In this document: positions 21,391 through 30,940 of the stretch, in pieces
Position numbering within the stretch: position 1 is the first letter of the stretch
Layout: each line of letters starts with the position of its first letter
Made by a program: the position numbers and the translations under genes
The notes under the pieces: model-generated
Databases searched by the model: none
What the model was told of the DNA's origin: nothing
What the model saw: the letters and a program-made list of their open reading frames with translations, nothing else
Assembly: GCF_032399705.1 (NCBI RefSeq)
Contig: NZ_CP135922.1
Coordinates: 5,518,001-5,582,000, forward strand
Origin: Paenibacillus sp. BIC5C1
Lineage (GTDB): Bacteria; Bacillota; Bacilli; Paenibacillales; Paenibacillaceae
DNA length: 64,000 nt
Direction of reading: 5' to 3'

Positions 21391-21420
21391 TTGACTTCAA
21401 AGCAATTTCCAGTTTATATT
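21391..21420 (+). promoter_or_regulatory. SigA promoter driving the MutS2-like leader
   Basis: TTGACT (21391-21396) and TATATT (21415-21420) are 18 bases apart on the plus strand. Transcription should start near 21427, about 370 bases before the MutS2-like gene. The long 21224-21798 gap is filled by this leader and, on the other strand, the regulator's upstream region. Confidence 0.65.
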
Positions 21421-21454
21421 AGTTGCATATTCCTCAATCAAAGGAGAGATTTTG

Positions 21455-21478
21455 ATGTCGGTGAGCGTTCTTAACTAA
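21455..21478 (+). CDS. Leader peptide MSVSVLN upstream of the MutS2-like gene
   Basis: ATG TCG GTG AGC GTT CTT AAC TAA follows AAGGAGAG at a 6-base spacing, as good a ribosome site as that of the main gene. Codons 5 to 8 form the 5' arm of the 12-bp leader stem. A ribosome held on this frame would open the stem. The position and size fit leader peptides of drug-inducible attenuators; the inducing signal is unknown. Confidence 0.5.
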   Translation: MSVSVLN

Positions 21479-21624
21479 CAAGTTTCATATTCAGGAGTTT
21501 GGCCTTCGATTCACTTGTGCCTTGTGGCATACGTGTATTTCATGATGCGCCATTACCCTGTACTTAGTTAAGAACAGCGGATATCATAAATCGCCTCCGG
21601 GATTGTACTTGTCCGGGTCTATTT

Positions 21625-21653
21625 CCGCGCTGTGTTCAGCGTGGATTTTTTTT
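21625..21653 (+). terminator. First intrinsic terminator in the MutS2-like leader
   Basis: An 8-bp stem CCGCGCTG with CAGCGTGG (one G-T pair) and a TGTT loop is followed by ATTTTTTTT. It lies between the leader peptide and the MutS2-like gene on the same strand. Confidence 0.75.
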
Positions 21654-21690: not shown

Positions 21691-21733
21691 AAGGGCGGAG
21701 AATGACGTTTGTTCATTCTCCGCCCTTTTTGCG
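21691..21733 (+). terminator. Second intrinsic terminator in the MutS2-like leader
   Basis: A perfect 15-bp stem (21691-21705 with 21713-21727) with a 7-base loop runs into TTTTT, 66 bases ahead of the MutS2-like start. A competing hairpin CCCTTACGTTAAGGG (21681-21695) overlaps its 5' arm and could act as an antiterminator. Confidence 0.8.
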
Positions 21734-21798
21734 TTTTCCGGGAATATGTTCCATCGCTTTAACCGAAATTCCATTTTATATCCAAGGAGAGATCAAGC

Positions 21799-23808
21799 AT
21801 GAATGAAAAAACTTTAACCAGTCTGGGTTATCCCCAAATTCAAAAAAATGTTGCCGCCTGTGCCCTATCCTATTTGGGCAAACGTTATGCAAGAGACATG
21901 AAGCCAATGGTAGACGCTCCTCTGATCCAAATGCGTCTGGAAGAGACCGCTGAAGCCGCTGCTTTGATTCGTAACGGCGCCAGTGTGCCCATTCCTTCAC
22001 TGGATGGCATGGAGACCATCATGGATCTGCTGGGCACCGGTTATTTATTCACGGAACGTGATTTCAGCCATCTCGCCCAATTTCTTCGCAGCTGCGCGCA
22101 GCTTATGAAATACATGGAGGGCAAATCCGAAGTGGCCCCGACAGTTAGTCGCTACGCTTCATCCATGATATGGATGGAAGCCTTGCTGAGCGAGATTGAA
22201 CGCTGCATCCATAGTGGACGCATTCAGGATCAGGCGAGCAAGGAACTGATACGTATTCGTAAAAAAATGACTGTGAATGAGGAACGCATGAAGCGCAAGC
22301 TGGATTCTCTTATAAGCAAACACCGCTCCATCATGCAGGAAAATGTGATCAGTCAACGTGGCGGAAGAACTGTCCTGCCCATCAAGAAAGAATTCCGCAA
22401 ACATGTTAAAGGCAGTGTGCTGGATGAATCGGGAAGTGGCCAAACCGTATATATTGAGCCTGCTGAATTAGTAGGTCTGCAAATGGAGCTGGCTTCACTC
22501 CAAGCCGAGGAATCACGGGAGGAGATGAAAATCCTCGGTGACTTAACCTCCCTTGCAGAGTCTTATAACCGAGAAATCTCACTAAACACCGAAACGGTAG
22601 GAATTCTGGATTTCCTGTTCGCCAAAGCGAAATATGCAGCCACCATGGACGGACGGACTGTACGTGTCAATGCCAATGGACGGGTTCTGCTTCATCATGC
22701 CCGCCATCCGTTTATGGGTTCATCCATGGTTCCGCTTGATTTTGCAATTGGTCAGACGTATTCCTCACTAATCATTACAGGGCCGAATACGGGTGGCAAA
22801 ACGGTTGCACTCAAAACATTGGGTCTGCTCACCTTGATGATGCAATCCGGTCTGCTTGTGCCTGTCGCTGAAGATGGCGAGATGGCCGTATATCATGAAG
22901 TCGCTGTGGATATCGGTGATGGACAGAGCCTGGAGCAAGCACTCAGTACCTTTTCTGCACATATTCGTAACATGATTGGCATCCTGGAGCAAGCCAATTC
23001 ATCGACACTTGTGCTTATTGACGAGATGGCCTCCGGTACCGATCCCGGTGAGGGAGTGGGGCTCTCCATCGCCATGCTGGAGGAGCTGCACAGCCGCGGA
23101 GCTACCGTTATCGCCACAACCCATTTTGGGGAAATCAAACATTTTGCAGCAGGTACGCCTGGATTTGAGAATGCCCGAATGGAATTCGATACGGTCTCTC
23201 TTCAACCTCTTTATCGATTGCGGATCGGAGAAGCCGGGGATAGTTATGCCTATTCCATCGCACTGAAATTGGGTATGCCACAGCGTATTATTGAGCGCTC
23301 CAAACTCATTTCAGATCAGGGTGTCCCGCAAAGTGTCTCTTCCAGCTTCACTCCATCCGTGCCTAACGTAAATTCGTCGTCAACGCAAATAAACAGCACG
23401 GCGGAACATGAACACTTGAATAAAACAAAGAACAAGATGAAACCTGTCAGCCCGTCCGTACAAACCGGAACAAGAAAGCACTCTGCTGATCGGTCTGAAT
23501 CAGTAGAACCCACCACCCCTGCCAAAGTATTCCGAAAAGGGGATCGCGTCTATGCAGCTTATCTGAACCAATCAGGCATCGTATGTGATGTGGAGGACAG
23601 TCGCGGAAATATCGGAGTCATGCTGCGTGGACGCAAAGTCAAAATTCACAAGAAGCGTCTAACTCTGCACATCTCCGCAGATGAACTGTATCCGGGTGAC
23701 TATGATCTCGACATTGTGCTGGAGACCAAAGAGAACCGCAAAAAACGCAAACTGATGAATCGCAAGCATGTGGAAGGACTGAAGATTGAATTGCCCCCTG
23801 AAGAATAA
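21799..23808 (+). CDS. MutS2-like ATPase lacking the Smr domain
   Basis: This 669-residue protein has the MutS2 core, lever and ATPase regions. Walker A is GPNTGGKT (328-335), an ABC-type signature region lies near 377-389, Walker B is LVLIDE (404-409, then MASGTDPGEG) and the switch His is in TTHFGE (440-445). A Ser/Thr/Asn/Lys-rich linker (about 505-575) leads to a KOW-like beta segment (about 577-625). The protein then ends, with no Smr nuclease domain; classical Bacillus MutS2 is about 785 residues. MutS2 is known to act on collided ribosomes. AAGGAGAG sets the start. Two terminators and a leader peptide upstream imply conditional expression. It is probably a paralogue of the housekeeping MutS2. 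Not a mismatch repair MutS. Confidence 0.85.
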   Translation: MNEKTLTSLGYPQIQKNVAACALSYLGKRYARDMKPMVDAPLIQMRLEETAEAAALIRNGASVPIPSLDGMETIMDLLGTGYLFTERDFSHLAQFLRSCAQLMKYMEGKSEVAPTVSRYASSMIWMEALLSEIERCIHSGRIQDQASKELIRIRKKMTVNEERMKRKLDSLISKHRSIMQENVISQRGGRTVLPIKKEFRKHVKGSVLDESGSGQTVYIEPAELVGLQMELASLQAEESREEMKILGDLTSLAESYNREISLNTETVGILDFLFAKAKYAATMDGRTVRVNANGRVLLHHARHPFMGSSMVPLDFAIGQTYSSLIITGPNTGGKTVALKTLGLLTLMMQSGLLVPVAEDGEMAVYHEVAVDIGDGQSLEQALSTFSAHIRNMIGILEQANSSTLVLIDEMASGTDPGEGVGLSIAMLEELHSRGATVIATTHFGEIKHFAAGTPGFENARMEFDTVSLQPLYRLRIGEAGDSYAYSIALKLGMPQRIIERSKLISDQGVPQSVSSSFTPSVPNVNSSSTQINSTAEHEHLNKTKNKMKPVSPSVQTGTRKHSADRSESVEPTTPAKVFRKGDRVYAAYLNQSGIVCDVEDSRGNIGVMLRGRKVKIHKKRLTLHISADELYPGDYDLDIVLETKENRKKRKLMNRKHVEGLKIELPPEE

Positions 23809-30613: not shown

Positions 30614-30667
30614 GAGAGTAGTAAATGTGTTTAATTGGTCTATGCAATACCCGCGGATGAATGTAAA

Positions 30668-30872
30668 GGGAGAGATTACCCTTGACACCGAATCAGGGTG
30701 TACATGCGGTAACGCCGAAGGAGTAAACCACCGACAAGCGGAGGTGAATCTCTCAGGCAAAAGGACTTTTACGGGACGCAACTCTGGAGAGCATCTAATC
30801 GCCGTGTGTGGGCGTTATGATCACCCAAGGGGAAACCTGCTGCATCATGCGGCGGGGTAACTCTCAGGTACC
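30668..30872 (+). ncRNA. Tandem glycine riboswitch
   Basis: Aptamer 1 has GGGAGAG, AACGCCGAAGGAGTAAA, then GAATCTCTCAGGCAAAAGGA and ACTCTGGAGAGC. Aptamer 2 follows after a short linker with CGCCG, GGGGAAACCTGC and AACTCTCAGGTACCAAGGAC. These are the conserved glycine aptamer segments, twice, in the tandem arrangement. It lies upstream of gcvT and should switch on the cleavage genes when glycine is high. Confidence 0.95.
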
Positions 30873-30940
30873 AAGGACAGAGCCTAAGAATACAGCGTGC
30901 TTCTGGCATGCCGATTCTTTGGCCTGTCCTTTTCCTTTTT
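30873..30940 (+). terminator. Expression-platform terminator of the glycine riboswitch
   Basis: AAGGACAG (30873-30880) pairs with CTGTCCTT (30924-30931), extended by AGCC/GGC and TAAGAAT/ATTCTTT, then a T-rich tract. The 5' arm overlaps the end of aptamer 2, so glycine binding can prevent this hairpin. Confidence 0.85.

Follow-up and report, generated by a model that had tools for sequence, protein, structure and literature searches.

A seven-codon leader frame within a conserved RNA stem as a very probable stall-responsive attenuator of a MutS2-like gene in Paenibacillus

The MutS2-like gene in the DNA analysed here (a stretch of 64,000 nucleotides from Paenibacillus sp. BIC5C1, called the window below) is preceded by a leader that, judged from its sequence, is very likely a transcription attenuator of the vmlR/tlrB/HflXr kind that responds to ribosome stalling and induces a likely ribosome-rescue factor. 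The attenuator logic, put forward in a first-pass annotation of the same DNA, is strongly supported by a conserved short frame, a compensated stem, a pause-type hairpin, two terminators and the presence of the same leader class before ribosome-protection genes. That annotation had also read phenicol-type stalling from the serines at positions 2 and 4 of the leader peptide, a claim that found no support: among 50 aligned leaders (alignment A1) codon 4 is free, with valine in 21 and serine in 14, and codon 2 encodes serine in 40 and leucine in 7. Phenicol-specific stalling was dropped, since Ser4 is not conserved, and the inducing drug class cannot be named from sequence.

The host genome has 7.08 Mb, and all features of the leader lie on the plus strand of the window. 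A divergent gene for an AraC-type regulator lies upstream, so that the leader needs its own transcription start. A promoter-like site (TTGACT-18-TATATT, 21391-21420, 10 of 12 matches) is only suggestive, because the number of such sites in the region is not above that in shuffled sequences. If it is used, the leader would be about 370 nt long; as a whole it begins near 21391 and reaches to the second terminator, at 21730. A Shine-Dalgarno sequence, AGGAG (21442-21446, read directly, with similar sites in relatives), is followed by the seven-codon frame MSVSVLN-TAA (21455-21478). Codons 5 to 7 and the stop form the 5' arm of the stem P1, GTTCTTAACTAA (21467-21478), a perfect 12-bp complement of the 3' arm TTAGTTAAGAAC (21564-21575), both arms being evident from direct reading, alignment and folding. 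Outside P1, TGATGTC (21453-21459), which overlaps the start codon, pairs with GATATCA (21580-21586) with one G-U, so that the start codon is covered too; 4 of these 7 pairs are changed on both sides. The coordinates of the first-pass annotation, its good ribosome site, its perfect stem over the last four codons and its outer pairing over the frame were thus all confirmed by direct reading.

Within the P1 loop, a hairpin (21516-21531), identified by a hairpin scan and a position test in relatives, is predicted to pause RNA polymerase. It is followed by a T-rich tract, TGTATTT (21534-21540), one base off the NusG motif TTNTTT that most relatives carry. A scan for terminator-like hairpins yielded intrinsic terminator 1 (21624-21645, T tail 21646-21653) and intrinsic terminator 2 (21691-21727, tail TTTGCGTTTT from 21728). 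The predicted antiterminator arm ACAGCGGA (21574-21581), assigned by eye and with a permutation test on 37 loci, can pair by eye with 21624-21627 and 21630-21633 (8 bp with a 2-nt bulge), in line with the earlier claim that the 3' arm can pair with the next terminator. The apex of terminator 2, TGTTC, is complementary to GAACA in the P1 3' arm. Folding of 21440-21600 gave -55.4 kcal/mol (z -4.86), a value reached by 0 of 200 shuffles. The Shine-Dalgarno sequence of the MutS2-like gene (21799-23808) was read directly at 21784-21789. A known Rfam RNA family was rejected as the identity of the leader, since a search at gathering score and E <= 5 gave nothing above any family's gathering score. 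Elsewhere in the window (30657-30882, plus strand) lies an ordinary tandem glycine riboswitch (Rfam RF00504), the next gene being by eye a glycine-cleavage T-protein.

From these parts we propose that in undisturbed cells RNA polymerase would pause at the loop hairpin and T-tract, and that a ribosome would translate the seven codons and leave. P1 would then close and lock its 3' arm, terminators 1 and 2 would form, and the MutS2-like gene would stay silent. A translation inhibitor or another stall would arrest the ribosome at the end of the frame, on its final codons or its stop codon, and keep the 5' arm covered, and the freed 3' arm (AAGAACA..CGGA) could pair with the stems and loops of the terminators, giving readthrough into the MutS2-like gene. 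One freed arm would have to serve two terminators. The product, a MutS2 ATPase core without Smr, would likely split or clear drug-stalled ribosomes.

The short frame is widely retained. In a first scan of 78 homologous MutS2-like loci, frames such as MSVNVLN, MSVVVLN, MSAVVLN, MLGVVLN, MIEVVLN and MSGVVHN took the position of MSVSVLN in genera from Paenibacillus and Brevibacillus to Fictibacillus, Rossellomorea and Lutispora; the frame of Desulfocucumis reads MSGVVLN. The covariance model R2 placed a leader before 75 of the 78 homologues (E <= 0.01), a count that includes many loci, or close kin of loci, from its own training set, and whose weakest members (L077, L068 and L067, 23 to 32 bits) do not outscore palindrome matches on the opposite strand. 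R2 gave no match at L073 (217 nt of upstream sequence only), L076 and L079. At E <= 1 it detected the leader in none of 30 canonical mutS2 loci, each of a different genome, 28 of them with more than 1 kb of upstream sequence (31 nt at L220 and 139 nt at L236) and 28 with matches that extend into the Smr region (all except L238 and L242). A leader common to all mutS2 genes is ruled out by this result.

Alignment A1 was made up of 30 leaders taken by protein homology and 20 taken by the exact P1 motif, the latter being biased to the consensus stem. All 50 frames are free of gaps and retain the start codon and stop; V5 and N7 are found in 50/50 and L6 in 49/50, residues 2 to 4 vary, and Ser2 is retained via TCG, TCC, TCT and AGC codons. 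Pairing holds in 89.4% of cells. The covariation score (0.127 vs 0.095 shuffled) and the number of cells changed on both sides (26 vs 11.8) were each matched by 0 of 500 shuffles; the number of pairs with any double change (7 vs 5.0, 55/500) and that of further pair types (26 vs 23.7, 75/500) were not above shuffles. Controls slid by -2 and +1 had 28 doubly changed cells each, yet just 28.7% and 43.2% of their cells were paired. The inner 12 pairs of P1 are nearly invariant in A1, and because this core hardly varies in Paenibacillaceae it yields little covariation in that family.

Stronger evidence for the pairing comes from divergent leaders in which both arms have changed together, as seen in a set of 24 leaders whose frames were picked by hand and whose best duplex was searched. 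CTT/AAG is replaced by CTG/CAG in L148 (GTTCTGAAC:GTTCAGAAC), by CTC/GAG in L144 (TTCTCAA:TTGAGAA, with one bulge beyond) and by AAA/TTT in L159 and the tet(M) leader L158 (TTCTTAAA:TTTAAGAA). The stem of L160 is TTTTTAACT:AGTTAAAAA, that of L116 is TCTTTTAT:ATAAAAGA with TTTTAT/ATAAAA, and that of L113, AGGTATC:GATACCT, has almost nothing in common with the consensus. The best duplex of L067 does not involve the expected arm, which sits outside the scanned range, and this leader was excluded from the support. L113, L114, L116, L143 and L148 keep a short frame with start and stop despite their changed stem letters; the frames of L146 and L160 run one codon longer, L199 has a broken stem only, and L200, before a BpsA-like gene, has lost both stop codon and stem. 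L113 and L114 come from phage-labelled wastewater records that resemble bacterial contigs; their MutS2-like proteins show 33-34% identity, and their leader stem has been replaced entirely. The first-pass annotation had named covariation in relatives as a check, and absence of the frame or stem among homologues as an outcome that would speak against it; instead, frame and stem are kept, and the arms of divergent leaders have co-changed.

The pause element was assessed by position, since the alignment is out of register in the loop: at fixed register the loop hairpin was paired in 13 to 25 of 50 leaders, a failure attributed to that shift. TTNTTT occurs in 35/50 loops (shuffled mean 10.6, never above 22 in 500 sets), 30/50 have a good stem directly 5' of the tract (12.5 in shuffles), and the mean stem score before the tract was above every one of 60 shuffles, all of these shuffles preserving base content only. 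Between frame and terminator the family carries a pause site of the NusG type, made up of the hairpin and TTNTTT, the copy in the window being one base off. According to the excerpts of the B. subtilis studies, the NusG pause motif TTATTT of vmlR, which was mutated in vitro and in vivo, serves drug-dependent attenuation (PMC9226507), and a NusG pause takes part in the drug-dependent attenuation of tlrB (PMC6851288).

The terminators are clear, and permutations give a predicted mutually exclusive antiterminator some support, with a small effect and a weak shuffled-arm control. Terminator 1 offers, on its 5' side and in its loop, a complement to the 3' arm and the bases that follow it (AACA.CGGA in the window). 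Over 37 loci, cognate combinations of arm and terminator 1 averaged -10.07 kcal/mol vs -9.23 kcal/mol when permuted (8 of 2000 permutations as good, relatedness ignored), and no more than 6 of the 37 loci did better, at the 0.05 level, than shuffles of the arm that they carry. For terminator 2 (GAACA vs the TGTTC apex), the values over 47 loci were -5.35 vs -4.89 kcal/mol (2/5000, relatedness likewise ignored); L144, L148, L198, L204 and L210 were left out, all 47 scored rows were kept, and the terminator picked for L055 and L059 is probably not the intended one. The energy effects are small for both terminators. A clear co-change of arm and terminator 2 is found in L160, AAAACACT with AGTGTTTT.

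The gene under this leader encodes a protein of 669 aa, in which profile search and structure prediction indicate a MutS2 core, an ATPase and a predicted SH3/KOW-like barrel, without Smr. It matches TIGR01069 with 577.7 bits (cut-off 400) over profile positions 1-509 of 790 and shows no PF01713 (Smr) match at E <= 10. The canonical MutS2, a separate gene in the same genome with 36% identity, has MSSS (KOW-like) and Smr domains, the latter with a PF01713 match of 93 bits. The predicted structure, built with 27 sequences (mean pLDDT 80.9), comprises the MutS2 core and five separate strands at residues 583-625 (block pLDDT 83-89), which may be read as an SH3/KOW-like barrel; PF20297 (MSSS) matched this piece alone with an E-value of 0.053, below the cut-off in significance, and did not match the whole protein. 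By fold, one of its best matches is the MutS2 chain in the collided-disome complex 7qv3 from B. subtilis (E 2.9e-45, 2.5 A over 518 columns). GPNTGGKT and DE, which we take to be Walker A and part of Walker B, do not vary among the 27 sequences, and a conserved LYPxDYDxDIxxETKENRKK stands at the C-terminus where canonical MutS2 has Smr. The protein of Paenibacillus taichungensis NC1 (L051) is 100% identical. On the Paenibacillus plasmid pHD01 (L115, NZ_CP013204.1) leader and MutS2-like gene lie near a tyrosine recombinase, and the MutS2-like gene of Paenibacillus sp. FJAT-26967 (L042:3001-4977) has two in-frame stops as matched, possibly from a frameshift or an assembly error.

Canonical MutS2 splits collided ribosomes in B. 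subtilis (PMC10897456), and its loss sensitises the cells to chloramphenicol, tetracycline and erythromycin. Deletion of Smr dramatically cuts the ribosome binding of B. subtilis MutS2, so the Smr-less paralogue need not act on collisions. Smr and KOW mutants are nevertheless only very modestly erythromycin-sensitive, and a Walker B mutant is as sensitive as the deletion. We hold the attenuator to be very probable and, in view of these deletion and mutant data, consider it fairly probable that the protein clears drug-stalled ribosomes. Among open-licence papers we found none on a Smr-less MutS2 in Paenibacillus.

The leader class extends beyond MutS2-like genes, and the functions found with it are largely ribosome protection and drug export. 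The palindromic stem pattern was present in 138/392 genomes of the same order, with 0 reversed-control matches in the genomes listed. Model R1 matched in 21/398 Bacillota genomes (E <= 0.01) and R2 in 50/250 Bacilli; in two further classes R1 matched 9/37 (E <= 0.05) and R2 3/13, the E-values of both models being rough. True leaders also score on the opposite strand because P1 is nearly palindromic, and opposite-strand matches were left out of the counts. The downstream gene was read for 118 leaders, a non-random set in which second copies and weak matches were chosen on purpose, the stem-pattern and Bacilli R2 searches having given many matches beyond these. After removal of seven duplicate places by coordinates, 111 distinct places remained, of which 66 are MutS2-like, 20 BpsA-like and 24 others (9 ABC exporter, 6 Tet(M/W/O/S)-type, 4 ABC-F, 3 APH-like, 1 MFS and 1 beta-lactamase-like), and 1 is an orphan. 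This orphan, L087 (G160:C1:8616452-8616560), has no target family within the downstream stretch examined. All 9 ABC exporter places belong to one genus, with the frame MIKGVLK in those read. The members tested scored 463 to 498 bits for ABC-F (cut-off 380) and 145 to 156 bits for BpsA_C (cut-off 27); one APH-like protein reached 127 bits and the copy in the window's own genome 22.5, below the cut-off of 23.2, and the beta-lactamase-like and own-genome APH cases may be chance neighbours. All weak forward R2 matches followed in Bacilli precede a Tet(M)-type, ABC-F, MFS or MutS2-like gene.

The BpsA-like genes belong to the branched-polyamine-synthase family and are related to N4-bis(aminopropyl)spermidine synthase and a predicted methyltransferase. 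We infer a link of this family to translation stress; in open-licence papers no connection between BpsA and antibiotics was found. By eye the BpsA-like proteins (PF01861; for example L117, L122, L124, L128, L130, L132, L134, L194, L195 and L200) have a winged-helix-like N-terminal part and a cysteine-rich tail. No BpsA-like gene was found in the window's own genome. That genome carries a second leader copy (L157, G000:C1:3754755-3754924, minus strand) with a GTG-start frame SAVVLS; about 300 nt separate its end from a gene for a weakly APH-like protein of 343 aa. Judged by eye, the second terminator of this copy is similar to the ones before BpsA-like genes, and the place may thus have lost a BpsA-like gene that an ancestor had.

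The 6 Tet(M/W/O/S)-type places share one covariance model with the MutS2-like leaders (E 2e-4 to 2.5e-3 per genome), R2 having been built without the tet(M) leader, which we take to be of the Tn916 type here. Of the proteins tested, Tet(M) scored 1513.8 bits vs a cut-off of 1420 and a second Tet(M/W/O/S) protein 1309.7 vs 1100. Their leaders score modestly (28.7 and 31.7 bits), and the score alone is weak because opposite-strand palindrome matches score similarly. Like the leader in the window, that of tet(M) has a short frame in a perfect 11-bp stem, GTATTCTTAAA:TTTAAGAATAC, and a terminator before the gene. The Tet(M)-type copies have the frame MRQGILK (L158:211-234, and also L204-L208), AATTTGATA after the stop, and a loop hairpin with TTAGTTTTTTGT. 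The tet(M) leader differs in that its annotated leader peptide is a 38-residue frame farther downstream (L158:326-442), the seven-codon frame being unannotated in this one plasmid record. Six leader peptides were looked for in open-licence literature, and none was found in print there. Transcription attenuation of tet(M) itself was described by Su et al. (1992), as cited in the excerpts of PMC9154091.

The mechanism class is already known, and what we did not find in open-licence literature are MutS2-family and BpsA-like targets and a leader that joins them to tet(M); the searched literature in this respect agrees with the first-pass statement that such control had not been described for a MutS2-family gene. 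As in vmlR, tlrB and hflXr, a short frame with a ribosome site lies inside a predicted upstream hairpin. In the excerpts available, vmlR of B. subtilis (PMC9226507) likewise combines a short uORF in an anti-antiterminator hairpin, a pause hairpin with TTATTT, an antiterminator (a predicted element in the window) and an intrinsic terminator; its uORF is MIN and its target an ABC-F gene, whereas the window has seven codons ending in VLN, two terminators and a MutS2-like target. As is predicted for the leader in the window, tlrB (yxjB) of B. subtilis has its pause hairpin at the apex of a larger hairpin, and a stall on its leader peptide prevents termination; it differs in its nine-residue peptide, its RYR arrest motif, its dependence on tylosin and its target, a 23S rRNA methyltransferase (excerpts of PMC6851288). 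In Listeria monocytogenes, hflXr (rli80) is described in part of PMC6310831 as a short-frame attenuator over a homologue of a ribosome-splitting factor, with the differences that its peptide has 14 aa and an RLR motif and that the product belongs to the HflX GTPase family and not to MutS2; a uORFC-6-1 motif precedes hflX according to excerpts of PMC8632094. For control of this type over a homologue of a ribosome splitter, HflXr is the direct precedent. The toiL uORF of topAI in Escherichia coli, also short with eight codons, senses several classes of ribosome inhibitors; what it acts on is a ribosome site and Rho-dependent termination instead of intrinsic terminators (excerpts of PMC12121999). 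Finally, B. subtilis MutS2 is homologous to the 669-aa protein in core and ATPase and differs by its KOW and Smr domains (excerpts of PMC10897456), and the leader class is in 0/30 canonical loci.

Three other explanations were weighed. The leader might sense a physiological signal such as amino-acid shortage, polyamine level or slow translation, the peptide stalling in response. The family of 20 of the 111 places, BpsA-like, is annotated for branched polyamine synthesis, and a specific stall peptide is possible, though this one has too few codons for a classical regulatory run. However, the Tet(M)-type, ABC-F and exporter genes that follow the same leader class have drugs in common, mostly ones that act on the ribosome, residues 2 to 4 of the peptide vary, and Val-Leu-Asn would make no single-pathway starvation code, so that we regard such a signal as unlikely. 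It appears improbable that control is mainly translational, with the gene's ribosome site being freed in the style of ermC, or partly of cplR, and the terminators being constitutive: these terminators lie between leader and gene, the complementarity of the arm is conserved, and the ribosome site sits 57 nt past terminator 2, even if a plain fold of 21691-21801 puts it near a weak long-range hairpin and cplR combines both modes (excerpts of PMC10201436).

The frame could also be incidental and untranslated, with P1 serving to bind a protein or an RNA or simply belonging to a terminator array. The start, seven ungapped codons and stop in 50/50 leaders and the spelling of Ser2 by four codons speak against it, as do the leaders that retain a short frame with a changed stem, the one-codon-longer frames of L146 and L160 and the lost stop of L200 notwithstanding. 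P1 nucleotides are, on the other side, conserved beyond coding needs, and the stem alone could keep codons 5 to 7; on balance an incidental frame seems very improbable. The stall-responsive attenuator is the reading that we prefer.

A wider reading, to which we give about even weight, is that a single class of leader, with some seven codons that end in V-L-N/K, with P1, a pause hairpin and terminators under antitermination, marks out a ribosome-stress regulon across the Bacillota, to which tet(M), ABC-F and exporter genes belong. It would expose two hitherto unrecognised ribosome-protection families, a MutS2 paralogue lacking Smr, as a splitter of ribosomes stalled by drugs, and a BpsA-like branched-polyamine synthase, as a shield of the translation machinery, both proposed because they share the switch with known resistance genes (guilt by association). 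The seven-codon frame would be the true tet(M) sensor, upstream of the annotated peptide, and the question of how the tet(M) attenuator senses its drug would be re-opened. If this reading is true, the leader class, with a search model at hand, would link known resistance genes to uncharacterised ones and offer a direct route to new ribosome-protection factors, and ribosome splitting by the MutS2 family would be an inducible answer of many soil Bacillota to ribosome-targeting antibiotics, parallel to HflXr.
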